A stretch of 30,503 nt of DNA from a virus. Below the pieces are notes generated by a model that was not told where the DNA came from, made no database searches, and was given only the letters and a program-made list of their open reading frames with translations. Location of the stretch: positions 1 through 30,503 of IMG/VR virus record IMGVR_UViG_3300032296_001776. The stretch is one strand, 5' to 3'. Both the position numbers and the translations under genes were made by a program. Positions 1-14,548 of this stretch are shown here, piece after piece; the first letter of the stretch is position 1, and each line of letters begins with the position of its first letter.

Positions 1-1074
1 CCATTCAACAGCATGGGTCGTGCGCTCAAGCACTTCAAGACAAACTATGGCAAGGCAGATGGTGGCACGATCTACCTCATGGAAGGTTTGAATCTTATAT
101 CTGTCGGTGCGTACAGTAACCACGGATGTCAGACATTTGAAAGATATTTGACTTTCCGTCCTGCACCTGGCCTGACAAGAGATCAAGTCAAACTAAACGG
201 CAACCCTGCGGGTGGATTGAGAGTCAACTTCATCAAGGTGGAGGATGTGACTTTCTATACCGATCCTGCAAGACCAAACACCTATTTTAGAAACGGAAAT
301 AGTTCATCTTGCTACTTTTGGGCGAACCGATGCCATGCGATCTACGAGGCGTACAACCCTGACGGAACATGGGCAGAACCAGCGTATGGCGGTGGATTTG
401 CACTTGGAAACGGAACGATTGGTTCTTTCACCGCTGTTCATGTAACTAATTGCTCGTCTTTCAACACCCGTGGAAATGTGCGATCAAATCAAATGGTCAT
501 CAACTATCATTGTGTTAGGCCTGGTGACACTCCATTCAGCGGAGCATTCCTCACGATCAATGCAGAGGCATATGAACCAGTAAGAATAGGTAGCGATCAC
601 CTTGACGGGTGGCATTGGTTTGGTACGGAAGGTTCTCCCATCCGCAGGGAGAACCACATCATGTACAACATATTCATGCGTAACTTTTGGGGACAGGGCA
701 TGATGTATGAGTATTTTTCCCCGGGAACCGAGAGTTTCGATGATGTAGCACTTGTCAACATCGACATAGAGCAGAATGTAGTAACATCAGCGGGTGGGTG
801 GTGGGAGATGGACACGAACCATCTGCTCATCAAGAATGTAACTCAATCAGATCAGACCTTGCGTTTCAAGCGTCCCGATCAGTTCACCTCCAATCCAAGA
901 CTTCAACTCAGGAATGTCCTGATAGAGAACTATTGCGGTAGTCTTTCAGATTTTGGTGATACACAACCTGTCGCTGGATCACCCAAATATCTCATAGAAC
1001 CAAATGTCAGAATAGTAAACTGGACAAGTCCTTGTATGGGTCAATGTCCAAACATAACTTGGCCATGCAACTAA
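1..1074 (+). CDS. Parallel beta-helix protein, 5' end cut by window edge
   Basis: The frame is open from base 1; an in-frame ATG lies at 13, but the reading continues upstream (PFNS before that Met), so the gene is probably truncated at the left edge. The visible 350 or so residues resemble the central part of the next gene: both have a phrase of the type GGTIYLMEG / DGITIYLSEG followed by repeated short strands with Asn and hydrophobic ladders, typical of right-handed parallel beta-helix (pectate-lyase-like) folds. In the neighbour about 200 residues with a signal peptide precede this point, so a similar missing N-terminus is likely here. No dockerin loop is present; it ends in a Cys-rich tail (CMGQCPNITWPCN). 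Such folds bind or cut polysaccharides or form adhesins, but no catalytic residues can be assigned. Adjacent paralogues suggest a duplication. Confidence 0.75.
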   Translation, partial: PFNSMGRALKHFKTNYGKADGGTIYLMEGLNLISVGAYSNHGCQTFERYLTFRPAPGLTRDQVKLNGNPAGGLRVNFIKVEDVTFYTDPARPNTYFRNGNSSSCYFWANRCHAIYEAYNPDGTWAEPAYGGGFALGNGTIGSFTAVHVTNCSSFNTRGNVRSNQMVINYHCVRPGDTPFSGAFLTINAEAYEPVRIGSDHLDGWHWFGTEGSPIRRENHIMYNIFMRNFWGQGMMYEYFSPGTESFDDVALVNIDIEQNVVTSAGGWWEMDTNHLLIKNVTQSDQTLRFKRPDQFTSNPRLQLRNVLIENYCGSLSDFGDTQPVAGSPKYLIEPNVRIVNWTSPCMGQCPNITWPCN

Positions 1075-1111
1075 CAACTTTTGTCATGTAACCATTAAAA
1101 GGAGAAAACAC

Positions 1112-2992
1112 ATGAAATGGTTAGTAACAGTATTCGCAGCACTTTTAATTACATCTTCAATTCACGCACAAAACATAATATCAGGCAACAATCCAAATTT
1201 TGTTCCCGAGCAACCCGCCGCCGTAGGTGACTCTGCGGCATATGGTTATCAAAATCGAGTGGTTGCTCGTTGGGTCAGTCCACAGTTTGAGACTATAAAT
1301 CAACCAACACGAATGGGAGTGCTTGCATATCACTTCACCGATATTGCAAGAGTTGACTTTTATTTGAATGGAGGGCCAGCACACAGCGTTTTCTCAAAGA
1401 CTCTACATCAAAATATCAATGGATATTGGGTAGATGTTGGAGAACTTCCTGATGCAGAAAAGAACACGCTGACTGCCATCGTCTATCCAAATAGCGGAAC
1501 TCCTTTTGTTTTGGGAAGAGGAACGATCAAATCTCGTCCACAGTATGAACCATTTCTCGATACTTTGAGAAACGCAACATGGAAGTTTACTGCAATGGGT
1601 GTCGAACCTCTACAGTTTGCATCAGACTTTAACAATACCCTGTCAAAACCTGTTGTTTATGTTGCAACTTGGGGTAATGACGCAAATCCCGGCACAGAAG
1701 CATTACCAAAGAAAACTCTTTATAATGCTATGGTGTCCAAATCAATTAATGGAAATCTTGATGGTATCACCATCTATCTCTCCGAAGGAGATCATGCTTG
1801 GGCCGCTCAATACTGGGCAGGATATCATGGAAACAAATATCGCTATGTTACTGTAAAGAATAATCCAAACAATCAAGTTTCTGCTCGCATTGGGTATATT
1901 GGCAATAGTGCAGGTTTCAGAACCAACAAAGTTAAGATTGAAGGTTTAATAATTCAACACGCAAATGGCCCAAATGTTGGTGCTATAATGACCACCACTT
2001 CATCTCCAATGCAATATTGGGAAGAGGGTCAGGCACTCCGTCTTGTGAACTGCACCATTGACAATTGGACTGCAACCAACAATCAAGTTACAGGCATGGC
2101 GGGTGGGGGATGGGATCATGTCGAGGCGTTCGATTGCATCATTTCAAATCTGTGGAGTGGATTTGCTACTGTGATGATTCGTTGCGATATAGAGAATATA
2201 GAAAGCGATCTTACTGGCAAAGGCGCACTCATTGTTACATCAACATTCAAGAACTACGGCAATGTTGGATGCAACAGCGGACTACAGAACTGCACAGAGG
2301 CACATCCCGATCTGATGCAATGGTTTTCTGGTTTTGAACCAAACTGCGACTACGGAATAACCAACAGCATCCTGTATAAGTACAGACCAAAGGATCGCTT
2401 TGATCCCATTTGGTCACAAGGTATCTTTGGTCAGGGTGCGGTGGATGTTGTAATTGATGATGTTGTGTTTCAAGGCGGTCGTATCGGATCATACGAACCA
2501 AGCACAAGTTGGATGCGTGGTTTGCATATCACCGAGTCCTACAATGTTATGATTCGTAACACCAATATTGGTAGCAACTGGACATCAGGTATTGGTAAGA
2601 TGCCCAATTACGGGCCACACACCGCTTTGATTCAGAACCTTAAGCAAATCAAGTGGAACTACACTACGCAAGACCCAGTATGGTATGGAACAACAATTGA
2701 TGGTAGATGGTTGATGTCTGCACATCAAGTAGAATATGTTTCAGCAGGAAAACCAGACATATATGATGCTGCTGCTAATGATTATGCGACAGAAAACGAA
2801 CCAAGACTTGGACCTGTCGGAGTACGATATGACTTTGATTGGACTGATCCTGACATTACCTATGATGCAAAGCATCTAGGAGTTGTTCTCGCAAATTGGG
2901 GACTATTGGGAGTTGGAGCAGAGGGAGATTTGAACAAAGATGGTTATGTTAACGCTGAAGATATTTCTTATGTTTTCAGTAAATGGAAGTAA
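1112..2992 (+). CDS. Secreted beta-helix protein with C-terminal dockerin loop
   Basis: Protein of 626 residues with an AAAGGAG ribosome site before the ATG. Residues 1-19 form a signal peptide (positive start, hydrophobic core, IHA before Q). Residues about 45-150 look like an Ig-like beta domain. From about 180 the phrase YVATWGNDANPGTEALPKKT is the classic opening of secreted parallel beta-helix proteins (G-N-D-x-N-P-G-T, then P-x-x-T). The helix runs to about residue 560. The C-terminus holds GDLNKDGYVNAEDISYVFSKW, which has Asp/Asn at calcium positions 1, 3, 5, 9 and 12 of a type I dockerin/EF-hand loop. It is preceded by LGVVLANWG, which looks like the tail of a degenerate first dockerin repeat. 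Such endings are abundant in Planctomycetes. The role may be host-surface modification or adhesion; this is inference. Confidence 0.8.
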   Translation: MKWLVTVFAALLITSSIHAQNIISGNNPNFVPEQPAAVGDSAAYGYQNRVVARWVSPQFETINQPTRMGVLAYHFTDIARVDFYLNGGPAHSVFSKTLHQNINGYWVDVGELPDAEKNTLTAIVYPNSGTPFVLGRGTIKSRPQYEPFLDTLRNATWKFTAMGVEPLQFASDFNNTLSKPVVYVATWGNDANPGTEALPKKTLYNAMVSKSINGNLDGITIYLSEGDHAWAAQYWAGYHGNKYRYVTVKNNPNNQVSARIGYIGNSAGFRTNKVKIEGLIIQHANGPNVGAIMTTTSSPMQYWEEGQALRLVNCTIDNWTATNNQVTGMAGGGWDHVEAFDCIISNLWSGFATVMIRCDIENIESDLTGKGALIVTSTFKNYGNVGCNSGLQNCTEAHPDLMQWFSGFEPNCDYGITNSILYKYRPKDRFDPIWSQGIFGQGAVDVVIDDVVFQGGRIGSYEPSTSWMRGLHITESYNVMIRNTNIGSNWTSGIGKMPNYGPHTALIQNLKQIKWNYTTQDPVWYGTTIDGRWLMSAHQVEYVSAGKPDIYDAAANDYATENEPRLGPVGVRYDFDWTDPDITYDAKHLGVVLANWGLLGVGAEGDLNKDGYVNAEDISYVFSKWK

Positions 2993-3031
2993 TAAGCAAA
3001 AAAGCATATAAGTGATTCTTCCACTCTGTTC

Positions 3032-3059
3032 TTGACAAGTAAATTAGTCGCTGTATACT
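3032..3059 (+). promoter_or_regulatory. Sigma70-type promoter for the PEP-CTERM gene
   Basis: TTGACA at 3032-3037, a 16-base spacer, and TATACT at 3054-3059. The predicted transcript would start near 3066, about 68 bases before the preferred start codon at 3134. The same TTGACA-N16-TATACT arrangement precedes the gp32-like gene at 19084-19111. The coding frame upstream of 3134 therefore overlaps the promoter and is not expected to be translated. Confidence 0.8.
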
Positions 3060-3133
3060 CTGAGTGTCAGCGAAGAAGAGGGGATAAGGTTCTCCTCATG
3101 TGTGGAATGCAAAGCAAAAAGGAAAGAAGAAGA

Positions 3134-3835
3134 ATGGTAAATAACTTTGTCGTCAAGTTGTGTGGTGTAGGAATTTGGGGCCTTGGGATGTTTGGGATTT
3201 CAAATTATGCTAACGCGGGTTTCGTGGTCTTCGAAAATGCTCCAGTTTTCGAAGGTGTTGGGTTCTATTCAGATGGTTTCGACAGCAAGGGTAACTATAA
3301 CTACCCACAGAGTGGAGCGCAAGCATTTTCTTTGGAGGATTTCACTACCGTAGGTGGACTTACATGGTGGGGTTCAATGAATGGTTTCTTTGGTCAAGGA
3401 TTGACCAATGTTGATTGTTTCCAAATCGTTGTTTGGGATTCAGCATTTGAAAATCAAATTTATTCGAAGCGCGTCGATATTTCGGATATCACAATTTCTT
3501 CTACGGGAATGGATAGTTTTTACGGACAACCTGTGTATCAGTTCGGGGTTGATGCTCTTGATGTTGCTGACTTTAATCTAACATCAGGTTCATATTTTAT
3601 GAACATCGGTGCAATTCTCAACATTTCTACTGGAGATCAGTTTGTTTGGTCACAAGGAGAGAATGTTGAAGGTTTTTGGTATACGGATTCCAATAATTGG
3701 GGTTCTTGGCAACCGCTTCCAACACAGATTGAAAACACGGCAGGTGGGGCATTTCAGATGTACGCTCTAGTTCCAAGTCCAAGTGCAATTGCCCTCCTTG
3801 GTATGGCAGGTTTGGTCGCTCGTCGTAGACGATAA
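3134..3835 (+). CDS. PEP-CTERM-like secreted protein
   Basis: The preferred start is ATG 3134, with GGA/GAAG purines upstream; in-frame ATGs at 3098 and 3107 are possible alternatives. Residues 1-28 form a signal peptide (core GVGIWGLGMFGIS, cleavage after NYANA). The body of about 180 residues is beta-rich with many aromatic residues and few charges, including a GGLTWWGSMNG phrase like those of PEP-CTERM beta-sandwich proteins. The last 20 or so residues carry a short P-S-P-S motif, a hydrophobic helix (AIALLGMAGLVA) and RRRR. This is the tripartite sorting signal read by exosortase systems, in the form seen in Phycisphaerae-type planctomycetes. The protein would be exported and processed by host machinery. 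The gene has its own strong promoter and tandem hairpins behind it, so it behaves like an independently expressed cargo (moron) gene. Confidence 0.8.
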   Translation: MVNNFVVKLCGVGIWGLGMFGISNYANAGFVVFENAPVFEGVGFYSDGFDSKGNYNYPQSGAQAFSLEDFTTVGGLTWWGSMNGFFGQGLTNVDCFQIVVWDSAFENQIYSKRVDISDITISSTGMDSFYGQPVYQFGVDALDVADFNLTSGSYFMNIGAILNISTGDQFVWSQGENVEGFWYTDSNNWGSWQPLPTQIENTAGGAFQMYALVPSPSAIALLGMAGLVARRRR

Positions 3836-3853
3836 AAAATATGAGAATTCAAA

Positions 3854-3910
3854 GCGGTGGATTTGACACACCGCATATGCCCACCCTCCTGACTTCACAC
3901 AGGAGGGTGG
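3854..3910 (+). terminator. Tandem hairpins ending the PEP-CTERM unit
   Basis: The first hairpin pairs GCGGTG (3854-3859) with CACCGC (3869-3874) around a 9-base loop. The second pairs CCACCCTCCTG (3881-3891) with CAGGAGGGTGG (3900-3910), an 11-bp perfect stem with an 8-base loop. Only a weak T-rich run (CTTTATAC) follows, so termination may be partial. Confidence 0.6.
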
Positions 3911-3914
3911 TGCT

Positions 3915-3924
3915 TTATACATAC
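3915..3924 (+). promoter_or_regulatory. TTATACATAC element, possible phage promoter core
   Basis: TTATACATAC lies 15 bases before the start of the zinc-ribbon gene. The identical 10-mer lies on the minus strand before the gene starting at 9504, and TAATACATAC lies before the baseplate operon at 24959-24968. A phage-specific late promoter is possible but untested. Confidence 0.3.
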
Positions 3925-3939
3925 ATTTGAGGTAATATC

Positions 3940-4233
3940 ATGCCAACATATTCTTTTTCATGCTCGTCGTGCAATGAATCATTTGATACCTACAGCACAA
4001 TAGCGAATCGTGATAATCCAATAAATGAACCTTGTCCTCTTTGTGGAAAGGAAAAGTGCGTGTCTAGATTATACGACACCCCACCCAACATGACGATGGA
4101 CTACAATCACAGAATCGACAGACCACACAATGTCGGTGGATTCCGTGAAGCAATTGAGAGAGTATGCGAAGCACCCGGTGTAAAAGGAACAGCAGCAGAA
4201 AAGACGCTAAGACAGAAACATACAACGAGATAA
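3940..4233 (+). CDS. FmdB-type zinc-ribbon protein
   Basis: Protein of 97 residues. It opens MPTYSFSCSSC, and a second knuckle (CPLCG) lies at residues 32-36, giving the CxxC...CxxC zinc ribbon of the FmdB regulatory-protein family, which is often carried by T4-like marine phages. The N-terminal Y-x-F-x-C is typical of the family. The remainder is polar and basic. A GAGG ribosome site lies 7 bases before the ATG, in the setting GAGGTAATATCATG. It leads the first plus-strand phage run after the PEP-CTERM unit. The molecular role is unknown; nucleic-acid or protein binding through zinc is inferred. Confidence 0.75.
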   Translation: MPTYSFSCSSCNESFDTYSTIANRDNPINEPCPLCGKEKCVSRLYDTPPNMTMDYNHRIDRPHNVGGFREAIERVCEAPGVKGTAAEKTLRQKHTTR

Positions 4234-4236
4234 TAA

Positions 4237-4920
4237 TTGAAGTCCTTCAAGCAGTACATCATCGAACTATTTCAAAAAGTTTCACCCTATAAACTTTGGT
4301 CATCGGGGAATGGTAACTGGTCGTGGACTTTCCAACTGTTGTCTGTAAAGAACACCAAGAGTTTCTTTGCCACCAGTAGTGCCGAAACAGATAGTTTCAT
4401 CGACAAACATGGCATGGAAGCGGTGAAGGGTTATCAATACGAGGTTGAGTATAGGAACATTCTTGGTTTTGGTGGCAAAGAGTATTCAGAATTCATCTTC
4501 GACTTCACCACCGAACATGACATTGATTCTAAGGGAATCTATGAACTTTCCTTTGGAATGAGATGGATGAACATAATTACCGCAGAGGAAGCAAGAAAAC
4601 AAGGATGGAGCAGAGTAAAAACCAAATATGTTTTCGAATGGGATGAGGGAACCGATGATGATATTAATTTGTTTGATGCTAGTACGGTTTCCACCATATT
4701 TGCAACAATAATGGAAATTTCGCGTACCTTCTTCAGAGACAATAAACCAAAAGCAATTGTGTTTGGAACGAAGGTAAATGTAAATCCTGCAAGAGCAAGA
4801 ATTTATTCTTCTCTTGCTAAAAGAATGGCAAAGGAACTAGGTGGGCAGTACTATGAACCCAGTTCCATCAGAAAAGACTTGGCAAACCCAATGGTTGTCA
4901 TGTTCCCACAAAACTTCTAA
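4237..4920 (+). CDS. Unknown phage protein with capsid-targeting-like leader
   Basis: Protein of 227 residues starting at a TTG codon 3 bases after the previous stop; no ATG near the N-terminus fits. The first residues, MKSFKQYIIELF, closely resemble the capsid-targeting leader of T4 internal proteins (MKTYQEFIAEA), including an I-x-E site like that cut by prohead protease gp21. The rest has no family I recognise. It is mixed alpha/beta, with a Lys/Arg-rich C-terminal third (NPARARIYSSLAKRMAKELG). A capsid-internal or co-packaged protein is inferred from the leader and from similar leaders in nearby genes. Confidence 0.6.
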   Translation: MKSFKQYIIELFQKVSPYKLWSSGNGNWSWTFQLLSVKNTKSFFATSSAETDSFIDKHGMEAVKGYQYEVEYRNILGFGGKEYSEFIFDFTTEHDIDSKGIYELSFGMRWMNIITAEEARKQGWSRVKTKYVFEWDEGTDDDINLFDASTVSTIFATIMEISRTFFRDNKPKAIVFGTKVNVNPARARIYSSLAKRMAKELGGQYYEPSSIRKDLANPMVVMFPQNF

Positions 4921-4929
4921 GGAGAAACT

Positions 4930-5154
4930 ATGGAAACAGTAAGCGTACCACAAGGGATCAAGTCAACAGAGTTTTGGACAACTTTTGCGGTTTTCCTCCC
5001 TGCTCTTGTTGAGAATTTAGGTTGGAAGGACAATGCCCCTTTGAGTGAATCGGGTCAGATAGCAATGTGGTGTGTAATGGGAATTGTCGGATGCGTGTAC
5101 ATAGTCTGTAGATCATGGGTAAAGGTAAATACATTAAAGAACGAGGCAAAATGA
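4930..5154 (+). CDS. Small membrane protein, holin candidate
   Basis: Protein of 74 residues with an AAGGAG ribosome site. A weakly hydrophobic segment at about residues 17-28 (FWTTFAVFLPALV) and a clear transmembrane helix at about 45-62 (IAMWCVMGIVGCVYIVCRSW) are followed by a short basic tail. Size and layout fit a small class II-like holin. It ends inside an ATGATGA overlap with the next gene. No lysis enzyme lies next to it, so holin is only one possibility; it could be another small inner-membrane phage protein. Confidence 0.5.
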   Translation: METVSVPQGIKSTEFWTTFAVFLPALVENLGWKDNAPLSESGQIAMWCVMGIVGCVYIVCRSWVKVNTLKNEAK

Positions 5155-6080
5155 TGAGCAAGATTATTCCTTATAGTACATTTCTAAAGACATTTCATAT
5201 CAATGAGACAATTGATCCACATGAGTTTCCTGATCCACTTCCCTCAAAGTTGATGAAATATTTTGCCACAAAAGGTAAGATGGATGGTGATGTCAATGAT
5301 GACAAGATTCGCACCAAGAATGCATCTTGGTCAGCATCTAAACTTCTCCCCTCACAGGATGCCATCTACCTTGGCAAGACCCTTGGCATGGCAATCGGTG
5401 GTGTCAAAGGTGGTGAACTCGGTTCCATCGTGTCGAACGATATGCGTATCCTCGACGGACACCACAGATGGGCAGCGACCATGTTTAATGATCCAAGAGC
5501 AAAGGTCGGTGGTATTGAGGTCGATATGAATATTCGCGAACTTATCCCCGTTCTTCGTGCTATGGGTGATGCCTACGGAAACGCTCGTAGAGGAAATCCC
5601 GGCGGAGGTGATATCAACATCTTCGAAGCATCTGTCAATGATGCAATCCTTGCAATCAAGGAAGGCAAGTATATGAATCCCAAGTTCTACGATCAGGCGA
5701 AAGCACTCGCATGGTTAGAGGAAATCGGTGGTGAACAGGTTCTAAAGGCAAGACTACAGAAGATTCAGTCCATGACTCCACCCGCAGATGCACCACCCCG
5801 TGTCAAGATGCCCGTGATCGACGCAGACAAGAAGCAGCATCTATCGGTTGCCGCAGCAATGAAGAAGGGTGATATTGACATCAATCCTCCTTATGCAAAG
5901 ATCGGTGAGGCAAAAGAAGAGCAAGAGGCAGAAAGACCACTTATGAAATGGTTCCGTGAGTTTGAAATGGAACTCAAGAAAATCGGTGGAAACTACAGCA
6001 AGATCAACCCAACTGATATGCTTGAACTATATTACGATCACGAATCGCCAAAAGAGGCAGCAAAGAAGTTGAAGAAATGA
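5151..6080 (+). CDS. ParB/sulfiredoxin-fold phage protein
   Basis: Start chosen at ATG 5151, which overlaps the previous stop (ATGATGA) and has GAGG at 5143; the ATG at 5115 lies inside the upstream gene without a good site. The protein is about 309 residues. MRILDGHHRWAATMF at about residues 98-112 is the signature of the ParB/Srx superfamily nucleotide-binding loop (D-G-H-H-R-W). The remainder is alpha-helical, charged and Lys-rich at the C-terminus. The N-terminus contains FHINET, an I-x-E site like those of gp21-processed internal proteins. ParB-fold phage proteins may bind CTP, ATP or DNA; the actual reaction cannot be told from sequence. The next gene overlaps its stop (ATGA), so the two are probably co-translated. 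Confidence 0.65.
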   Translation: MMSKIIPYSTFLKTFHINETIDPHEFPDPLPSKLMKYFATKGKMDGDVNDDKIRTKNASWSASKLLPSQDAIYLGKTLGMAIGGVKGGELGSIVSNDMRILDGHHRWAATMFNDPRAKVGGIEVDMNIRELIPVLRAMGDAYGNARRGNPGGGDINIFEASVNDAILAIKEGKYMNPKFYDQAKALAWLEEIGGEQVLKARLQKIQSMTPPADAPPRVKMPVIDADKKQHLSVAAAMKKGDIDINPPYAKIGEAKEEQEAERPLMKWFREFEMELKKIGGNYSKINPTDMLELYYDHESPKEAAKKLKK

Positions 6081-7102
6081 ATTTTCGCGTAATACAGAAT
6101 CTAATTAATGAAAAAGTCTACGGCAAGTCGGGACTTGGTGCTTGGTTTAATCAGCAATCCGCAGGAGGAGAGGCGGGTTGGGATCGCTACAACGAGAAGG
6201 GTGAAAGAGTAGGAGAGTGTGGTGATGCCAAAGAGGGAGAACCATACGCTGCTTGTCTGTCTCGTCAAAAAGCAGAAAAACTAGGCAAGAAAAAGATAGG
6301 TGACTTTGTGCGTAGAAAACGAGAGGCACAGAAGAAGGCAGGAGATGCCACCAAGGGTGGAGAGTCCAAGAAAGGACAGAAACCCGTGTTTGTCAAAACA
6401 GGAGTGACTGATATGGAAGAAGAAAACAAACCAACCAATCCCTCTCTTTGGAAGAAGGCGATTGCAATGGCAAAGAAGACATTCGATGTGTATCCATCTG
6501 CATATGCAAATGCATGGGCATCGAAGTGGTATAAAAAACACGGAGGAAGTTGGAAGACGGTCAGCGAGGACTGTGGTTGTGACGAGGAGATCGAAGATGT
6601 GATGATCTTTGAGGGTGGAGAACCCAAGAATGTCAAGTTGAACGATCCATTTCGCACACCCGATGGCCCCAAGAAGTTCGGGGTTTATGTCCGAAATGAC
6701 AAGGGTAATGTGGTTCTCGTTCGTTTCGGTGATCCAAACCTTTCCATCAAGCGTGACCAACCCGAGCGTCTTAAGAACTTCCGTGCAAGACATGGTTGCG
6801 ACGAAGACCCAGGCCCGAAGTGGAAGGCGAAATATTGGTCTTGCAAGTTTTGGGAGAAGGACAGTCCTGTGAGCAAGTTGCTCTCCAAGGGGGAAGTGTC
6901 AGAAGAAGTAAAAGTCCAATCAGTAGAACAACTCGCTAAAAAGCATGGAGTTTCTGTCGGGAAGATTGAGAAGGAACTCAAGATGGGCATCAAGGTCGAG
7001 ATGGAACACACCGATGATCCTGATGAAGCAGAGAATATTGCATTGCAACACTTGGCAGAGGTTCCTGACTACTACACCAAGTTGCTCAAGTATGTCGAAT
7101 AA
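6077..7102 (+). CDS. Modular phage protein with DUF5661-like C-terminus
   Basis: Protein of 341 residues built from short modules. Residues 10-14 (INEKV) may be a processing site after a short leader. Residues 18-85 hold a GLGAWFNQQSAGG...C-x-D...AACLSRQKA...FVRRKREAQ module common in phage and marine-virus proteins. Residues 122-160 form a Lys/Trp-rich helical module (AYANAWASKWYKKHGG). Residues 186-260 carry the motif ARHGCDEDPGPKWKAKYW-S-C, a recurrent phage module of unknown role. Residues 282-341 (VEQLAKKHGVSV...EMEHTDDPDEAENIALQHLAE) fit the DUF5661 family. Segments are joined by acidic linkers, one of them CGCDEEIED, which recurs in the gene at 9904. A virion-internal or scaffold-associated role is inferred. 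Confidence 0.6.
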   Translation: MNFRVIQNLINEKVYGKSGLGAWFNQQSAGGEAGWDRYNEKGERVGECGDAKEGEPYAACLSRQKAEKLGKKKIGDFVRRKREAQKKAGDATKGGESKKGQKPVFVKTGVTDMEEENKPTNPSLWKKAIAMAKKTFDVYPSAYANAWASKWYKKHGGSWKTVSEDCGCDEEIEDVMIFEGGEPKNVKLNDPFRTPDGPKKFGVYVRNDKGNVVLVRFGDPNLSIKRDQPERLKNFRARHGCDEDPGPKWKAKYWSCKFWEKDSPVSKLLSKGEVSEEVKVQSVEQLAKKHGVSVGKIEKELKMGIKVEMEHTDDPDEAENIALQHLAEVPDYYTKLLKYVE

Positions 7103-7117
7103 CACACGGAGGAGTGC

Positions 7118-7633
7118 ATGGTAAGAGATAGAGAAGTTCTTCTCTTGAATGCGTGTGAGCAAGTTTTGAAAATAATACCTTGGACTAAAGCAGTCAAACT
7201 GCTTATGACAGGGAAGGCGACCCAACCAACAAATTACAATAAATTCTACGAAATAAGAACGACAGGTGGCGTGTTTAAATTACCCGCCGCCATCGTTCTT
7301 CTTCGTTTTTATGAAGTACCATGTGCGGTTGTAAACCCAACAAGGGCAAATATCTTCAGAAGAGACAATTATACCTGTCAGTACTGTGGTCTTCATAGTA
7401 AAAAAATGATGACAATTGACCATGTGCATCCTAGAAGCAAGGGTGGTGATTCCTCATGGACAAATCTGACCACCGCCTGTAGAGAATGTAACTCCAAGAA
7501 GGGTAATAAAACTCTGAGGGAATGCAATATGATTATAAGGGAAAGACCTAAAAAACCTACATATTATGCGTTTTACATCAAGGGGATTGACAAAAACGGG
7601 AAGTTACTTTGGGAGAAATGGATCAATGTTTGA
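7118..7633 (+). CDS. HNH endonuclease
   Basis: Protein of 171 residues with a strong ACGGAGG ribosome site. The core at about residues 85-130 is RRDNYTCQYC...IDHVHPRSKGGDSSWTNL...ACRECNSKKGN. This gives two CxxC zinc knuckles around the HNH centre: the IDH His, the Asn of WTNL, and the conserved N-x-K-K-G-N tail. The N-terminal region (VLLLNACEQVLKIIPWTKAVKLLM) matches the fixed upstream domain of the stand-alone McrA-type HNH family in bacteria and phages. It is expected to nick or cut DNA using a metal ion. It could be a free-standing homing nuclease or help packaging or exclude rivals; nothing here decides between these. It overlaps the next gene by 8 bases. Confidence 0.88.
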   Translation: MVRDREVLLLNACEQVLKIIPWTKAVKLLMTGKATQPTNYNKFYEIRTTGGVFKLPAAIVLLRFYEVPCAVVNPTRANIFRRDNYTCQYCGLHSKKMMTIDHVHPRSKGGDSSWTNLTTACRECNSKKGNKTLRECNMIIRERPKKPTYYAFYIKGIDKNGKLLWEKWINV

Positions 7634-8939
7634 CAAAAAGTTGTTCTTATCACATCACACAAATCGACAAAACACACCAAGAGGCGCAAATTTCGACAAG
7701 GTTGTTGTCGATAGTCAAGGTATGCGTTGGGGTTTTGATGCAAGAAAAGGCATCTATGAAAATCTAAACACAGGTCAGAGAATGAACAGCGTTCTCTTTG
7801 AGAACACCAACCTTTCCAATGCTACTTCCTCGGCCGCTGCGGCAGGAGATTCTTCAAGTGGTTGGGGTGTCAGCAACAGGTCTTCGGATGTAAATACTCC
7901 CGAAGTACAGGCAAGACTCACACAAAGAGGAACAACAAGAGGAAAGTCCTTTAGACAAGCAGAGGCAACACTTGGTGTTGCCGCCAGTATTGTACAAACA
8001 GAATCATTCTTTCCTCTAGACTCTGTTTTCTATGGTAGACTCAAGGGGCCATATTTTGACGACAATGTTACAAGATCAGATAGTGTAGGTGAAACTGGTT
8101 CCGTTTATCACGCAACATGGAAGACCACAGGTGGTAGAGTCAAGGCATATTTCAATCCTGATGCATTGTCGGGTTCCACATTCACAGACATTGATACACC
8201 GGGATCAGGGCATATTCAGGTAGAAAAACTGAGAATATATCAGATTTTCGAAGAGAGTACTGCTTCAAATTTGATGAGAATGGATGTTCTATTTGGTAGC
8301 ACAACCGATGCATTTAACGCTTATAGCATGATATGGGGTGTTACAGGAACCACAAGTACAAGTATCAATGACTACTATATTGGTGCGCCCGTTGATGAAG
8401 ACACAGAAGGAAGAAAAGTATTCTACGCAAGAATCACAGATTCAGGGAAGACTGCAAGATATCGTGGAGGTAGACTATTCAATTCATACTCTGATTCTTC
8501 AGTTCCAAACAATGGTTCATTCAAAATTCAAGACCCATTTGAACAGTTATTTACTGGTTACGGGGGTGCGTATGCAGCAATGGGGTGGGAACAAAGACTG
8601 TCTGGTTACTACGGCCCTGGTTCTCCTCTAGGTACAACAGGAGAGAGTCTAACAGGTCCAGCGGGAGATTTGGTAAGCAGGTCTTTGTACATAATCTTCT
8701 CAGGAGGGGGAACTGGTACTGATCGTCAACCATTCTCGATGGACTTCTCCATTAACGATTCACTAACAAGACCAACCAATATCTTGTACAATAATCCAAA
8801 TGGAGTGGGATCGACTACGCCATTCGAATTTGACTTCGCGTTCCTCAAGGGAACAAACGGAACGACTTGGAGTGTCAACCACACCAGTTACAGTATTGGA
8901 GGGGCAACCACAAGTGGAGAAGTTCCCGGTTTCGATTGA
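7626..8939 (+). CDS. Probable virion structural protein, unknown family
   Basis: Start chosen at ATG 7626, overlapping the HNH stop, with GGGAG upstream; an earlier in-frame ATG at 7566 lies deep inside the HNH gene. The protein is about 437 residues, rich in Gly, Ser, Thr and Asn with few Lys, as expected of beta-rich virion proteins. A low-complexity stretch (SSAAAAGDSSSGWG) lies near residue 80. Other phrases such as RGKSFRQAEATLG and TTWSVNHTSYSIGG are not diagnostic. It closes the first plus-strand run and is followed by a strong terminator. A fibre, head-decoration or baseplate-periphery role is possible; no assignment is made. Confidence 0.6.
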   Translation: MFDKKLFLSHHTNRQNTPRGANFDKVVVDSQGMRWGFDARKGIYENLNTGQRMNSVLFENTNLSNATSSAAAAGDSSSGWGVSNRSSDVNTPEVQARLTQRGTTRGKSFRQAEATLGVAASIVQTESFFPLDSVFYGRLKGPYFDDNVTRSDSVGETGSVYHATWKTTGGRVKAYFNPDALSGSTFTDIDTPGSGHIQVEKLRIYQIFEESTASNLMRMDVLFGSTTDAFNAYSMIWGVTGTTSTSINDYYIGAPVDEDTEGRKVFYARITDSGKTARYRGGRLFNSYSDSSVPNNGSFKIQDPFEQLFTGYGGAYAAMGWEQRLSGYYGPGSPLGTTGESLTGPAGDLVSRSLYIIFSGGGTGTDRQPFSMDFSINDSLTRPTNILYNNPNGVGSTTPFEFDFAFLKGTNGTTWSVNHTSYSIGGATTSGEVPGFD

Positions 8940-8964
8940 TTCAAGAAAACATAAATACAAGAAA

Positions 8965-8993
8965 GGGAGGGCAAACGCCCTCCCTTTTCTTTT
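8965..8993. terminator. Bidirectional rho-independent terminator
   Basis: A perfect stem GGGAGGGC (8965-8972) / GCCCTCCC (8977-8984) with loop AAAC is extended by AAA/TTT pairs and followed by TTTTCTTTT. On the minus strand the same hairpin is followed by TTTCTTG. It sits between convergent genes and can serve both. Confidence 0.92.
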
Positions 8994-9504
8994 ACAGAGA
9001 CTTTCGTCTAGTTTTACTCGTAAACCTTGCCCTTAATGCACGATTGACCACTTGATTATATCTAATGATAATATCAGCGATCTCGCGATCCTTTACATCA
9101 TTTATGTCATCCTCTTCTGTTTCTTTAATAGCATCTTCTTCGACTGATTCAAAGACTCCACTTAGTTTTGGATCGTGAACATCTGCTACGCTCAAGATTT
9201 TTCTAACAGAACTGAGAACATATGAAATCATGTTGGGTGATTCCGTGTATAGGAATTCAGGAAGTCCTTGGATTAGTTCCCACAAGGACATTTTCTCCCC
9301 AGTTTGGGGGTGATCCCAAATACCTTTAAGACCACCTTTGTTATAAACTTTCTCTATTTGATTGATGAGTTGATCTGCATCTCTTTTTGTCAAAGAGGGT
9401 GTGTTCCACCATGATTCTATGATTTTCTTTTTTGAATTTTCGCTATAAAGTTCTCTGTTGATGGTTTCCATCAAAGAAAAATGGTTGTTTTTGTTGAGTC
9501 TCAT
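8992..9504 (-). CDS. Unknown acidic phage protein
   Basis: The open frame extends to 9570, but ATG 9504 (MRLNKNNHF) is preferred because a GAGAGGG purine run lies about 10 bases before it. The protein is about 170 residues and mostly helical. It has a Trp-rich early segment (IIESWWNTPSL, GIWDHPQTGEKMSLWELI), an acidic middle (EEDAIKETEEDDINDV) and a basic tail (RARFTSKTRRKSL). I do not recognise the family. It is the only minus-strand gene between two plus-strand runs, so it has its own transcript; the element at 9525-9534 is a candidate promoter core. It ends inside the U-run of the shared terminator. Confidence 0.55.
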   Translation of the reverse strand: MRLNKNNHFSLMETINRELYSENSKKKIIESWWNTPSLTKRDADQLINQIEKVYNKGGLKGIWDHPQTGEKMSLWELIQGLPEFLYTESPNMISYVLSSVRKILSVADVHDPKLSGVFESVEEDAIKETEEDDINDVKDREIADIIIRYNQVVNRALRARFTSKTRRKSL

Positions 9505-9524
9505 GTCTTGATGCCCTCTCTGTG

Positions 9525-9534
9525 GTATGTATAA
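9525..9534 (-). promoter_or_regulatory. TTATACATAC element before the minus-strand gene
   Basis: Read on the minus strand, TTATACATAC lies 20 bases before the preferred start at 9504. It is identical to the element at 3915-3924. On the other side of this divergent region GTTTCA (9564-9569) / TGAAAC (9573-9578) forms an inverted repeat with a 3-base centre, ahead of the plus-strand gene at 9604. Confidence 0.3.
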
Positions 9535-9603
9535 GATCAAGAAACACCTACATATAGCGTAAGGTTTCATCCTGAAACTTCAAATATTAACCAAGGAGAT
9601 GAA

Positions 9604-9885
9604 ATGCCTGACGCTGATCGAAACTTGAATGCCGTACACAAAAAGTTTAGCGTGACTGCAATCCTGATGGGATGGTTTTTGACTATTGCTATCTTTATTT
9701 GGAATGTCTCCTCTACGAACACAAACTACATTTATAGATTAGATAGAATCGAAAAAGAAATCATTACAATTGACGAAAGACTTGATATTGGCGATGCATT
9801 TCGTATGCAAATCAACACGGATATCGCCCAAATAAAGACAGACCTGTTGTGGATTAGAAAAACTCTAGAACACACATCTAAATAA
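9604..9885 (+). CDS. Single-span membrane protein with coiled-coil tail
   Basis: Protein of 93 residues with a strong AAGGAG site. A transmembrane helix lies at about residues 16-36 (FSVTAILMGWFLTIAIFIWN). The remainder, about 40-90, shows heptad-like spacing of Leu/Ile among charged residues (YRLDRIEKEIITIDERL...IAQIKTDLLWIRKTL). The topology, one N-terminal span and a long helical domain, fits inner-membrane spanins and several other small phage membrane proteins. No outer-membrane partner gene is visible, so no function is assigned. Confidence 0.55.
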   Translation: MPDADRNLNAVHKKFSVTAILMGWFLTIAIFIWNVSSTNTNYIYRLDRIEKEIITIDERLDIGDAFRMQINTDIAQIKTDLLWIRKTLEHTSK

Positions 9886-9903
9886 GACTGAAAGGTAAAG
9901 ACT

Positions 9904-11535
9904 ATGTGGACACCCCCTAGCAGACAACAAATCGAAAGCAACGCCAATCCCTATCGCGCCCTCACAAGCGAACAAGTGAGACAAAACGCACACAAGGCGT
10001 GGAAAGAGGCAGCGGACAAGAAACTCAAGGATCAGTATACTTGGGATGCCAAGAAGGGCAAGTATGTCCGTCTTGATGGAGAAAAGACCCCCTTTGATGA
10101 TCTTGAGGATCAGTACACTTGGGACGAGAAAAGTGGCAAGTATGTTCGTCTTGATGGAGAGACAGGTATTGTCGAGGAGTCTGTTGACTTGTCAGAAGGT
10201 GGTGTCAAAGCAGCACTTGAAGACTATATGTACTCAATTCCCAAGGCAGCGATTGAGGAACTCAAACCAATAATGAAGCAGAAGGCATCTACCAAGAAGT
10301 TTGGTCAGATCACCAAGATTCTCAAGAAGCACGGTTTCACCGACAAGTTTATGGGTTCTTACCCTGCAAATGTGGTGAACGACTATTTCGATACCTTCTT
10401 CGGTGAGTCAACTGAACTTGATGAAGTTTCTCCTCCCGGTTGGGAAGGAACTGTCAAGGCAATGAAGAAGAAGAAGGAAATTGACAATCCTTGGGCATTG
10501 GCATGGTGGATGAAGGGCAAGGGATACAAGTCTCACCGCAAGGAAGACGGAACCAAGAAGGAATCTGTCGAACTTGGTGAGCAAGAGAAAGCAATCAAGT
10601 CAGACAAGGTTGATCCCGAGGGGTACTATGCCGTATACAAAGACGGTGGCAAGTTAAAGGTGGCAGGGCCCTATTCCACCGAGTCTGCGGCAACAGACTA
10701 CAACTACGAAGGTCTGGTGGATGTGCTTGACGGTGCGGAACTGGTGAAGAGTCGCTACAAAGCGATATCGGTGGTGAAGGAATCTGTCGAACTTGGTGAG
10801 GCATCAGAGAGCATCAAAAAGGTAAAAAAGATGGGTTTCCAAACTCTTTATCAGTTTGGAGGCAAATACTACATAGTATCCACTTCTCCGATGGCAGATG
10901 AAACAGCAATTTTCAACTCTGACAAGAACGGTGATGTGAAGGACTATAGAGAAATTTGGTCAGAGAGAGAAAGAGTAAGTCACGACTACGCAATCAAGGA
11001 CTACATCGACAACAAATTCAAAGCATTTGGTGTCAAAATTGAATCAGTATGCGGTTGTGATGAAAAAATAGACGAATCACACACCCGCGCCGAATTGGAA
11101 AAGTTGTCCATTAGCAAACTACGCGAACTAATGAAGGAATACGACAAGAAAGCAGCAAATGGTGACGATGATGCAGCGCGTGAACTTGCCGACATCAGAG
11201 GAATCCTTCGTAGCAGAGGTGCGGGTAGTGTTGTAGAGGAGAATCTACAAGAGCGTTCTATTGCTGACATGGCAGCGGAGATCATTCCAATCAAGCACCG
11301 TGGCCCAAGCATGAAACCCAAGAAGGTTACTGCAATCAAGTTGGTTCTTCCCGACACACCTGATATCAAGAAAAAGATGAAGGCAGTCATGGATAAGGAT
11401 GCCACCTTCCGTAGAAAGATGTTGGATTTGGTGATTGATAGGGAAGAAAGATCAAACGGAGAACTTGTTCTTCATTTTGCATCGTTCAGAGGTCGTGAGA
11501 AGTTCTCTGAAATGATGAACGATGCCGCAAAGTGA
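9904..11535 (+). CDS. Modular repeat protein, probable capsid-internal protein
   Basis: Protein of 543 residues. Residues 43-60 and 69-86 are near-identical repeats (DQYTWDAKKGKYVRLDGE / DQYTWDEKSGKYVRLDGE). Acidic linkers recur: EESVDLSEGG (91-100), KESVELGEQ (219-227) and KESVELGEAS (292-301). Each contains L-x-E, two of them followed by Gly or Ala, the pattern cut by T4 prohead protease. A CGCDEKIDES linker (383-392) echoes one in the gene at 6077. Segments between linkers look like small independent domains, for example WEGTVKAMKKKKEIDNPWAL and TRAELEKLSISKLRELMKEY. The N-terminus, SNANPYRALTSEQVRQNAHK, is helical. I infer a polyprotein-like protein packaged in the prohead and processed; no enzyme domain is recognised. 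Confidence 0.6.
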   Translation: MWTPPSRQQIESNANPYRALTSEQVRQNAHKAWKEAADKKLKDQYTWDAKKGKYVRLDGEKTPFDDLEDQYTWDEKSGKYVRLDGETGIVEESVDLSEGGVKAALEDYMYSIPKAAIEELKPIMKQKASTKKFGQITKILKKHGFTDKFMGSYPANVVNDYFDTFFGESTELDEVSPPGWEGTVKAMKKKKEIDNPWALAWWMKGKGYKSHRKEDGTKKESVELGEQEKAIKSDKVDPEGYYAVYKDGGKLKVAGPYSTESAATDYNYEGLVDVLDGAELVKSRYKAISVVKESVELGEASESIKKVKKMGFQTLYQFGGKYYIVSTSPMADETAIFNSDKNGDVKDYREIWSERERVSHDYAIKDYIDNKFKAFGVKIESVCGCDEKIDESHTRAELEKLSISKLRELMKEYDKKAANGDDDAARELADIRGILRSRGAGSVVEENLQERSIADMAAEIIPIKHRGPSMKPKKVTAIKLVLPDTPDIKKKMKAVMDKDATFRRKMLDLVIDREERSNGELVLHFASFRGREKFSEMMNDAAK

Positions 11536-11541
11536 GGTAAT

Positions 11542-12810
11542 ATGCTAGACTTCAATAGTTTTCTAGACATCTCCGAGGGTAAGCGCGGAAAGAAGCGTAG
11601 AGCAAAAGAACGCGCAGAACGCGCAAAGAAGCGTGGTTCCTATCAGAACACGAAACTTATCCGTAAGAAAATGCCAGCGGATGATGCTGCGAAAGCAAGT
11701 GACGATGTTCTAAAGGACATCGTTGCCCGTGGAGGTGCTAGTGCGAGTTCAGCAGCAGCAGAACTCAGCAAAAGAGATGTCGAGGTTCCCGAGAAGGGAA
11801 GTGAAGACCCAAATGATGATCCCATGAACAAGGGAGAGGGCGATACCACAAAGGAACCCGAACCCAAAGAAGAACCCAAAGACGAGAAGGAACCCGAAAA
11901 GGAACCCGAACCCAAAGAAGAACCCAAGGACGAGAAGGAACCCGAACCCGAGGGCGATGATAAACCAAAAGATGATGCTGAAAGCGAAGGTCAAAAAGAA
12001 CTAGAAGATGCCTCTGCCAAGGTGGAGGACGCTATTGATAATGCGGTTGAGGGAGATGGTAAAGAAGAAAAGGGAGAGTATGATTGGGATGTGATTTCTA
12101 GTAAGTTAGATGTGAAAGACAAAGAGGAAGAGAACAAATTAAAGAAGTTCCTTGAGAAAAACAAGATAGGACAACTCCTTCAAGCATTTATCAACACAAA
12201 ACCCGCAGAACTCACAAATGTAGAAGCGGCACAACAAGACCTACTACAAACAGTAGTGGACAAGATCAACAATAAAATTGACACCAACATAGAAGCAAGA
12301 AGAGAGAAGAAAGAGAAAGAAAGTGAAGTGAACGATCTAGTCAAGGATGCCACAGACAAAGATTTGGATGACCTCATTAAGAAGGGCGGGGAGCAAGGTA
12401 AACTTGCAAAGAAAGCGAAACAAGAAAGAGAAAGACTCACAACCAAGTTCAATAAAAAGAGCAATGACGATCTAAAGGACGCTATAAGAAAAGGTGGAGA
12501 CGAAGGCAAGGAAGCACAAAAAGAACTTGATAGAAGAAAAGGAAGAGTTGATCGTGCCAAGGAACAACTCTCTGACAAGTATGGAAGTCTAGACAAGGTG
12601 GACTTCGAAATGGCGAAACAAGTTCTTGGTAGCGAACTTGCACAGGAACTAGTCGATCTAGGATCAATCAAGAAAGAGTTGAAGACCAAGAAGGAAGAGT
12701 CTTATCGCAGTCTTCATACAACCATTCTAGAGATGACAGAAAATAGTAGTTCAAACTACAGAAACCTCCACAACGCAATAAGAGATGTGTGGAGTAGAGG
12801 AAATCAATAA
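11542..12810 (+). CDS. Highly charged repeat protein with targeting-like leader
   Basis: Protein of 422 residues beginning MLDFNSFLDISEGKRGKKRR. The hydrophobic leader followed by I-S-E then Gly resembles the cleaved capsid-targeting leader of T4 internal proteins, and a strongly basic segment follows it. Residues about 80-155 are a low-complexity run of KEPEPKEEPKDE units, probably disordered. Three copies of a helical motif with a central GG occur: DDVLKDIVARGGASASSAA near 55, KDLDDLIKKGGEQGKLAKKA near 275 and DDLKDAIRKGGDEGKEAQKE near 313. GAGG lies 6 bases before the ATG. The stop overlaps the next start (TAATG). A DNA-associated internal head protein is inferred. Confidence 0.6.
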   Translation: MLDFNSFLDISEGKRGKKRRAKERAERAKKRGSYQNTKLIRKKMPADDAAKASDDVLKDIVARGGASASSAAAELSKRDVEVPEKGSEDPNDDPMNKGEGDTTKEPEPKEEPKDEKEPEKEPEPKEEPKDEKEPEPEGDDKPKDDAESEGQKELEDASAKVEDAIDNAVEGDGKEEKGEYDWDVISSKLDVKDKEEENKLKKFLEKNKIGQLLQAFINTKPAELTNVEAAQQDLLQTVVDKINNKIDTNIEARREKKEKESEVNDLVKDATDKDLDDLIKKGGEQGKLAKKAKQERERLTTKFNKKSNDDLKDAIRKGGDEGKEAQKELDRRKGRVDRAKEQLSDKYGSLDKVDFEMAKQVLGSELAQELVDLGSIKKELKTKKEESYRSLHTTILEMTENSSSNYRNLHNAIRDVWSRGNQ

Positions 12811-13580
12811 TGCTCAATAAACTAATCACTATAATTACATCGTTGTTCATAACTACATCTGCTCTCGCACAGACTGATCCAAATGCCAAGATTGATCTGA
12901 CCCTAGTTCCCGAAACAAACAAGGTTTCGCAGGATCAGACATTCTCGGTTTCTCTAATGATGTCTGCACAAACTACCCCACAAAGATATCTTGTATCAGA
13001 TATCATTTTCTCTTGGGATCATACCGTTCTAGAGTTTGTTGGAATCTCACATGAGGGTTCCCACCCAATGATTTGGGTTCCTCCTAGTGGTATGCCTTGC
13101 CCACAAGATGTGACAGAGTGTGCAGGAATCGGTGGTGATTACACAGGAATCAACGAGTCTATTCCACCCGCAGACGGAAACGGACTGTACTATGGATATG
13201 GTCAACTTGGTCAAGTTTTCATTGTAACTGAACCTGTTCAAATAGTTAAGTTCATATTCAAGGTCATTGCTCCATTTGAAACTACTCAAATCTCATTGCT
13301 ACCCGAATTGACTGTCGCCTATAGAGCAGAGACGGTAGTGTATGGTAGTTACATTCCAGGCCTAGATACACTTGGAAACATCAATAACGCTATTGTTGAA
13401 TTTTCGCAACCATTGGTCGGAGACTTCAATGGAAATGGAACGGTTGCATCTGATGATCTTGCAGAACTTCTTGCCAACTGGGGAACAATCACATTTGATG
13501 AAAATCCATATGACCTCAATGGTAACGGAGTCGTGGATGGCCCAGATATGAGCATCTTGTTCTCAAATTGGACGATGTAA
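12810..13580 (+). CDS. Secreted cohesin-like protein with two dockerin loops
   Basis: Protein of 256 residues whose ATG shares one base with the previous stop. Residues 1-20 are a signal peptide (SLFITTSALA before Q). Residues about 25-190 resemble a cohesin-type beta-sandwich: TLVPETNKVSQDQTFSVSL early, then IFSWDHTVLEFVGIS, the usual position of the conserved W-D-P/H-x-V-L-E-F phrase. The C-terminus has two type I dockerin loops, DFNGNGTVASDDLAELLANW and DLNGNGVVDGPDMSILFSNW, each with Asp/Asn at calcium positions 1, 3, 5 and 12. In the first, Ala replaces the usual residue at position 9. This is the standard design of planctomycete secreted proteins. It sits inside a run of phage virion genes, so it may decorate the infected cell surface or be recruited to virions. 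Confidence 0.8.
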   Translation: MLNKLITIITSLFITTSALAQTDPNAKIDLTLVPETNKVSQDQTFSVSLMMSAQTTPQRYLVSDIIFSWDHTVLEFVGISHEGSHPMIWVPPSGMPCPQDVTECAGIGGDYTGINESIPPADGNGLYYGYGQLGQVFIVTEPVQIVKFIFKVIAPFETTQISLLPELTVAYRAETVVYGSYIPGLDTLGNINNAIVEFSQPLVGDFNGNGTVASDDLAELLANWGTITFDENPYDLNGNGVVDGPDMSILFSNWTM

Positions 13581-13612
13581 GAGATAGATATAACAGATAA
13601 GGAAAAAAACAC

Positions 13613-14011
13613 ATGGGAGACTTAACAGCAGGTGGTACAATCGACTACAGCGCAATGCCCTCTTGGACTGCGCGTATGCACTCTTCGGCACATGATATCC
13701 GTAGAACAGTATCGCCCGAACCAACGGTAATTGGAAATAAAAGAGTCATCAGTTCGGCAGGATTCACTAATGCAAATAATTCCATTTTTGGTGATGGTAA
13801 TAGCAAACAGTTGAACTCAGGTATTCTCATCCGTGTTGTGGATGCGCCCGGTTCTAGACTTTTTTGGGGATTTACACAGGCAGGACTTGCAGAAGGTCAA
13901 TGTAACTTCTTGTCTAACGGAGAGTCTACATTTGTCCCAACAACTGATCTAGGAAGAATATTCTTCAAGACATCTTCGGGTGGTTGTACGATTTCTGTTC
14001 TTGGAGAATAA
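13613..14011 (+). CDS. Small virion-like protein, paralogue of next gene
   Basis: Protein of 132 residues with an AAGGAAA site. The N-terminus MGDLTAGGTIDYSAMPSW, followed later by DIRR, matches that of the next gene (MGDLDVNGNVDNSAMPSY...DIRR), so both share a leader module. The rest is beta-rich. It ends with a phrase of the type F-V-P-T-T-D-L-G-R-I-F-F-K-T, similar in layout to V-F-I-P-V-T-D-M-S-R-V-V in the next gene and to E-V-F-V-E-I-K-N-L-D in the gene at 17962. A head-decoration or fibre-associated virion protein is inferred; no named family is recognised. Confidence 0.6.
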   Translation: MGDLTAGGTIDYSAMPSWTARMHSSAHDIRRTVSPEPTVIGNKRVISSAGFTNANNSIFGDGNSKQLNSGILIRVVDAPGSRLFWGFTQAGLAEGQCNFLSNGESTFVPTTDLGRIFFKTSSGGCTISVLGE

Positions 14012-14014
14012 CAC

Positions 14015-14548
14015 ATGGGCGATCTTGATGTCAATGGAAATGTTGATAACTCTGCGATGCCATCGTATCGCAGAAAAAGTAATTCTTTTGACATAAGAAG
14101 AGAAATAGATCAGACTGAATCTAGTCTAGCGACAACGACCCAAAGTGAACATACGGTCATCATAGGAAAACAACCCGCCGCTTGGTTTGAGTACACAGGC
14201 GCACAGACCATCAAGGATATGACAGGTGTCGCAACCGCTGTAGAAGGTGTGAACATCAAAATTTCTCCCGGTGGAATAACTTCAGATACTTCAGGATCAA
14301 GTTATCTTATACTGTACAATTATGCTGTCGGTATAACAGATGGAGGAACAGCGGGAATAACGCAGGGAGACAATGTATATGATCTATTCATTATGAATGG
14401 GTCAGTAGACGGTCTTTTAGAACAACAGGTGTTTATTCCAGTTACGGATATGTCAAGAGTTGTTCTTGTTGCACTACCAAACAATATCAGCGCAGGACTT
14501 GAAACAATCGCCACTTATGCAAATAGATTGGAGATCAACATCAGATGA
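14015..14548 (+). CDS. Small virion-like protein, paralogue of previous gene
   Basis: Protein of 177 residues starting 3 bases after the previous stop. It shares the N-terminal module and the C-terminal strand pattern (VFIPVTDMSRVVLVAL) with its neighbour. It then diverges, with a Gly/Thr/Ile-rich beta domain (GVNIKISPGGITSDTSGSSY). Its stop overlaps the next start (ATGA). It probably belongs to a set of surface or decoration proteins made together with the genes on either side. Confidence 0.6.
   Translation: MGDLDVNGNVDNSAMPSYRRKSNSFDIRREIDQTESSLATTTQSEHTVIIGKQPAAWFEYTGAQTIKDMTGVATAVEGVNIKISPGGITSDTSGSSYLILYNYAVGITDGGTAGITQGDNVYDLFIMNGSVDGLLEQQVFIPVTDMSRVVLVALPNNISAGLETIATYANRLEINIR

Follow-up and report, generated by a model that had tools for sequence, protein, structure and literature searches.

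Phage morons are promoter-gene-terminator cassettes located between phage genes; they are variable in presence, common to different phages, and have mostly been described in temperate phages. Phages may also encode proteins of the host envelope, such as Llp of phage T5, an exported envelope protein that is expressed during infection and sorted by the lipoprotein route. This lipoprotein is associated with superinfection exclusion (PMC9586334). In bacteria, a different route is provided by the PEP-CTERM/exosortase (EpsH) sorting system (Haft et al. 2006, PMC1569441), which is represented by the models TIGR02595, PF07589, and TIGR02602. Searches of the open literature gave no precedent for a phage or viral PEP-CTERM protein or exosortase substrate, an absence that is not proof of novelty.

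The DNA analyzed here (the window) is the whole IMG/VR record IMGVR_UViG_3300032296_001776, 30,503 bases in length, in which the element of interest occupies positions 3032-3913 (Table 1). A first-pass annotation had described this element as a PEP-CTERM protein gene of a T4-like phage with its own strong promoter. Comparison with other viral contigs and with bacterial genomes (loci and contigs are labeled L, genomes G) shows that a gene of this kind is present, often behind a strong promoter of its own, in several mutually unrelated phages that probably infect freshwater planctomycete-type bacteria. The encoded secreted protein ends in the sorting tag found on surface proteins of these bacteria themselves, which suggests that infected cells are made to display a viral protein.

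Table 1. Features of the window (positions of the 30,503-base record)
Feature	Positions	Strand	Basis
Secreted protein, C-terminal part, apparently cut by contig end	13..1074	+	94.6% identity to 591-aa L309/L310 protein
Secreted protein, dockerin-like end GDLNKDGYVNAEDISYVFSKW	1112..2992	+	Dockerin_1 only E 0.15; viral homologues
Sigma-70-type promoter (TTGACA 3032-3037, spacer 16, TATACT 3054-3059)	3032..3059	+	11/12 consensus match
Probable ribosome-binding site region AAAAGGAAAGAAGAAGA	3117..3133	+	Read from sequence
CDS of exported protein (233 aa plus stop)	3134..3835	+	Sequence reading, family alignments
Predicted signal peptide, residues 1-28, cleavage between ANA and G	3134..3217	+	Sequence reading
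Exported beta-sandwich-like domain, WWGSMNG and GDQFVW motifs	3218..3763	+	AlphaFold2; pN/pS; chromosomal homologues
Phycisphaerales-type exosortase-like sorting tail PSPSAIALLGMAGLVARRRR	3773..3832	+	Family alignment, host tails, AlphaFold2 helix 216-231
First downstream hairpin	3854..3874	+	z -2.35
Strong terminator-like hairpin, then TGCTTTATAC	3879..3913	+	-25.9 kcal/mol, z -6.65
Small membrane protein	4930..5154	+	Relatives directly after tail-protein gene in L002, L003, L031
Second exported protein, Dockerin_1 end	12810..13580	+	PF00404 E 4.3e-5, above cut-off

The gene and its product

Matches to a baseplate hub, tail tube, DNA end protector, and head closure protein, together with a tail tube cap and a baseplate hub with tail lysozyme, support the assignment of the window as a T4-like contig. 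Mis-assembly with host sequence, which had been named as a possible objection, was rejected, because the same gene is present in dozens of other contigs and its GC content equals that of the contig (0.428 vs 0.427); it is a real phage gene. The open reading frame had been started at 3032, where a TTG lies inside the -35 box; the ATG at 3134, preceded by AAGGAAAGAAGAAG, is the likely start. Two further genes of the window were observed in passing: a 760-aa cysteine-rich repeat protein without family match (15676-17958, minus strand) and an HNH endonuclease (7118-7633), the HNH part of which resembles that of IscB and Cas9, below the cut-offs of those models.

The predicted protein consists of a signal peptide, a beta-rich domain, a P-S-P tail, a hydrophobic helix, and RRRR. 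Its hydrophobic N-terminus has an AxA-type site, and A28 is at least 90% conserved in the family alignment; the AlphaFold2 confidence is low at residues 1-28. AlphaFold2 predicted a beta-sandwich-like domain followed by the C-terminal helix, with a mean pLDDT of 70.6. The best PDB fold match was weak (a baseplate protein of phage phi812, E 1.7e-4, TM 0.38), lower-ranked weak matches included carbohydrate-binding modules and lectins, and matches among viral structures were similarly weak; the function proposed below is not based on fold matches. The window protein had no match when the PDB was searched by sequence, and no enzyme family matched it. The signal peptide, PSPS, hydrophobic helix, and RRRR noticed at first reading were all recovered, and the tail is kept in the family alignment.

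The C-terminal tail

The window protein ends in VPSPSAIALLGMAGLVARRRR, with a tail that runs from P214-S-P-S to R-R-R-R. Across an alignment of 31 family members, P214, P216, L221, G226, and R231-R233 do not vary. The tail partly follows the PEP-CTERM layout, with a hydrophobic helix and then a basic cluster (RRRR), in a protein with an N-terminal signal peptide. The Glu of Pro-Glu-Pro, a motif that is near-invariant in PEP-CTERM proteins, is absent: the middle residue of P-x-P in 30 phage copies was T in 15, A in 11, S in 4 (the residue of the window protein), and E in none. The window protein did not match TIGR02595 or PF07589, and the family members remained below the cut-offs of these two models (best E 0.13 and 0.041, respectively). 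Among sorting models, MYXO-CTERM (TIGR03901) matched the most members (15 of 20), with weak scores (best E 0.031).

The designation as a PEP-CTERM protein was therefore not upheld, as Glu is missing in 30/30 copies and the models stay below cut-off, an outcome named beforehand as counting against it. What stands is that a phage encodes an exported protein whose C-terminus carries an exosortase-type signal; membership in the PEP-CTERM family does not. The PEP-CTERM models look too narrow for the Phycisphaerales clade, because the tails of these bacteria also lack Glu (125/125, see below). The P-[A/S/T]-P-G motif is abundant in Phycisphaerales, and TIGR02595 and PF07589 may miss such tails there too.

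The viral family and its genomic contexts

Two scans of viral contigs (IMG/VR) returned 33 and 44 loci, corresponding to about 45 distinct sequences, most of which align almost end to end with the window protein at 50-63% identity. Both signal peptide and tail are kept in all intact complete copies, and the gene is under purifying selection (mean pN/pS 0.23; domain 0.19, tail 0.25, signal peptide 0.64). Neither a set of 50,697 phage records nor PHROGs contained a match to the window protein. The same ending does occur in other viral contigs, a point that had been proposed for checking: a DNA pattern of the tail, slightly looser than the one run on species genomes, hit 34 loci in 2.9 million viral contigs, 33 of which belong to the family by reading. 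The exception, L224, is a different secreted protein on a T4-like contig, where two proteins unrelated to the family (4904-5914, minus strand; 3509-4192, plus strand) end in P-x-P, a hydrophobic stretch, and RRR.

Six genomic contexts were distinguished. In the window, the gene lies beside two secreted dockerin-like genes (i). In T4-like contigs with the gene order UvsX-helicase-primase-ThyX, it is found between ribonucleotide reductase and a RuvC-like resolvase (ii). In T7-like contigs, tail fibre, small membrane protein, lipoprotein, and terminase small subunit genes are upstream and the terminase large subunit gene is downstream (iii). The remaining contexts are those of L027, L028, and L034 (iv), of L030 (v), and of L002, L031, and L234, which are T4-like by tail tube matches (vi). 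The T7-like backbone was assigned from terminase, head, and tail proteins, and the T4-like backbone from replication genes. All T7-like copies fall into a single supported clade nested among the T4-like copies, so that at least one transfer of the gene between unrelated phages seems to have taken place. Its presence is facultative, since the island from ribonucleotide reductase to RuvC contains it in L003, L008, and L206 and lacks it in L309 and L310. In L033 (8926-9761), the gene is split by a frameshift, which could reflect decay or sequencing error.

The two adjacent secreted genes with dockerin-like repeats at 13-2992 of the window form an accessory island. The 591-aa relative of the first has a signal peptide and an N-terminal dockerin-like repeat, and homologues of the second are present in T4-like L309, L310, and L206 and in the apparent podovirus L311. 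Close relatives (90-95%) of the window dockerin genes in L309 and L310 occupy the same ribonucleotide reductase-RuvC island, and L311, whose podovirus-like backbone was judged by eye only, has a 69% relative of one of them. The family of the second exported protein of the window (12810-13580) follows the tail-protein gene in L002, L003, L007, L031, L210, and L212, and its window member is 40-43% identical to products of Phycisphaerales chromosomal genes. In addition, L031 encodes a subtilisin-like serine protease (15726-17177) whose N-terminus resembles a signal peptide and whose C-terminus is dockerin-like, of the GC type, at a score below threshold.

Promoter and terminator

The strong promoter and tandem hairpins reported at first reading both held up. 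The promoter is the best promoter-like site within positions 1-15000 of the window, and comparable sites recur in the family: a perfect 12/12 match (TTGACA-16/17-TATAAT) is located within 150 nt upstream of 11 of 30 copies, and a match of at least 11/12 in 12 of 30, the window being the additional case. Elsewhere in the same contigs, the background per 150-nt window was 0.0041 (at least 11/12) and 0.00065 (12/12), so that about 0.02 perfect sites would be expected in 30 copies. In L018, L019, and L029, the promoter comes directly after a terminator-like hairpin. The two downstream hairpins of the window jointly had a z of -5.77, with 0/200 shuffles equally stable; stable hairpins follow most T4-like copies, many with a T run behind, and in T4-like contigs the gene mostly forms a transcription unit by itself. 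Such a promoter and such hairpins are lacking in the T7-like copies, which are located among late genes, and early expression would therefore not be general.

The host group

A near-identical tail pattern (P-x-P-G...AGLxxRRRR) was detected at no fewer than 120 loci in 84,980 species genomes. Among the matches listed, nearly all records are titled Phycisphaerales, Phycisphaera, other Planctomycetota, or uncultured. Phycisphaerales-type tails were also seen in four records titled Limnohabitans, Chitinophaga, Kuenenia, and Singulisphaera (JASGCF01, CALQCP02, CAMDMA01, and CAMBWI01, respectively), bins that are suspected to be, and probably are, wrongly titled. The products at the listed loci are mostly signal-peptide proteins with ends such as VPAPGAIALLGLAGLAGRRRR, nearly letter-for-letter the phage tails. 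The Phycisphaerales form is P[A/S/T]PGAIALLGLAGLxxRRRR, to which the phage tail conforms, with S replacing G after the second Pro in the window. When the middle residue was left free, all 125 tails among the listed matches in 14 host-type genomes had A, S, or T, the set of residues also seen in the phage tails, and none had Glu, under a pattern that fixes length and RRRR and to which classical PEP tails of other lengths are invisible.

Exosortase (PF09721) was found above cut-off in 17 of 18 tail-bearing genomes, and the AECSG, NxxR, and HxxxG motifs, with the catalytic Cys, Arg, and His, are present in nine of ten exosortase loci read (L157 was translated in a wrong frame). All five exosortases scanned scored above the TIGR02602 cut-off and none fits a named subtype. 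Such co-occurrence was rejected as proof of tail processing, because 291 of 298 genomes of the class encode exosortase, which makes it nearly universal there. At the ten exosortase genes read, no tail protein was adjacent.

A profile search of 301 genomes of the order revealed two near-full-length chromosomal homologues, L292 (E 1.8e-63) and L293 (E 2.4e-56). The former adjoins a ClpC-like gene and the latter lies near EF-Tu- and prolyl-tRNA-synthetase-like genes, neighbors that were named by reading the sequence. An earlier alignment-based genome scan had returned no relative, probably owing to exact patterns that were too strict. For the family contigs, neither an isolate nor a CRISPR spacer nor any other direct link to a host turned up. 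The host is very probably a Phycisphaerales bacterium.

Proposed role and alternative explanations

We consider export of the protein and its processing by exosortase likely, and only slightly less so that the gene is a phage moron captured from a Phycisphaerales surface-protein gene, the host exosortase acting on the exported product; that the protein is then presented at the cell surface or within the exopolysaccharide layer is also rather probable. In T4-like phages, host RNA polymerase would transcribe the gene from early infection, Sec would export the protein, and the tail would lodge in the inner membrane and so retain the protein there. Cleavage near P-x-P by the exosortase of the host might then release the domain to the surface or to the layer of exopolysaccharide, where it could cover or alter the layer to which phages attach, so that other phages are kept out and released progeny do not stick to debris. 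By analogy with Llp of phage T5, superinfection exclusion or the shielding of progeny from debris is put forward as the purpose only tentatively. On the whole scenario, in which unrelated lytic-type T4-like and T7-like phages have exchanged a captured Phycisphaerales gene encoding the first viral exosortase substrate, displayed to exclude competitors or protect progeny, our judgment is evenly balanced.

The main rival to this purpose is that the exported protein alters the extracellular matrix or aggregation together with its dockerin-type neighbors, promoting progeny spread or loosening the matrix. Genes for secreted proteins with dockerin-type tails accompany it in the window and in L002, L003, L007, L031, L206, L210, and L212, the fold has a weak, low-ranked likeness to carbohydrate-binding modules and lectins, and L031 adds the subtilisin-like protease. 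However, such neighbors are not always present, no enzyme family was matched, and even the best fold match is weak, which leaves a change of the matrix somewhat unlikely.

A second alternative concerns the processing step: the tail might be cut by another membrane protease of the rhombosortase or MYXO-CTERM type, or serve as a mere membrane anchor, with no role for exosortase. The weak TIGR03901 matches and the absence of a strict PEP motif would fit, whereas tail-bearing genomes encode exosortases with intact catalytic motifs, and motif, helix, and basic cluster form the layout of exosortase substrates; this explanation is considered improbable. A place for the protein in the virion, as a fibre or decoration protein whose hydrophobic tail misleads, is very improbable. 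The window is a tail-gene contig, and phage baseplate and tail proteins are among the best structural matches, but assembly of phage particles is cytoplasmic, the family conserves the signal peptide together with the membrane tail, bacterial chromosomes carry homologues, and the gene has its own host-type promoter and, in other T4-like phages, the ribonucleotide reductase-RuvC position. Host DNA contamination, mis-assembly, or a non-functional passenger gene, for which the chromosomal homologues and the frameshift-split copy might be cited, was rejected as next to impossible given dozens of viral contigs, several fixed phage contexts, a pN/pS of 0.23, and the phage-matched GC content in the window.

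Exosortase sorting is widespread in environmental bacteria yet poorly understood. If the exosortase reading is correct, a small substrate that unrelated phages carry behind a strong promoter would point to something that phages need on the Phycisphaerales surface. The phage protein could serve as a natural reporter for a tail-exosortase pair and its gene as a sequence marker tying uncultured phages to Phycisphaerales hosts. The tails of this clade appear to be missed by current PEP-CTERM models.

Comparison with known systems

Like substrates of the PEP-CTERM system, the phage protein has a signal peptide, a short C-terminal motif, a hydrophobic helix of about 14 residues, and a basic cluster, and it is encoded by a free-standing gene, contains a domain without known family, and has an exosortase in its likely host. 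It differs in being phage-encoded, in having P-[A/S/T]-P-G instead of P-E-P, and in remaining below the cut-offs of the models. The closest relatives are the Phycisphaerales chromosomal proteins L292 (in G548) and L293 (in G539), which have the same full architecture, are 39-48% identical to phage family members, and end in IPGPGATVLLALASLMGITSRRRR or VPAPGALALLGLAGLVRRRRAR; unlike the phage copies, they are bacterial and of higher GC content. The likeness to Llp, as a phage-made exported envelope protein, is a proposed analogy only: there is no sequence relation, and Llp is a lipoprotein sorted by its own route. As in phage morons, the gene has its own promoter and terminator in the window and in many T4-like copies and is facultative in a common backbone; unlike most described morons, which are those of temperate phages, it occurs in T4-like and T7-like contigs, and the T7-like copies lack the promoter and terminator. 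Exosortase-type tails, morons, and phage surface proteins are thus all of known kinds, and it is their phage-borne combination, common to T4-like and T7-like phages, for which the open literature searched gave no example.
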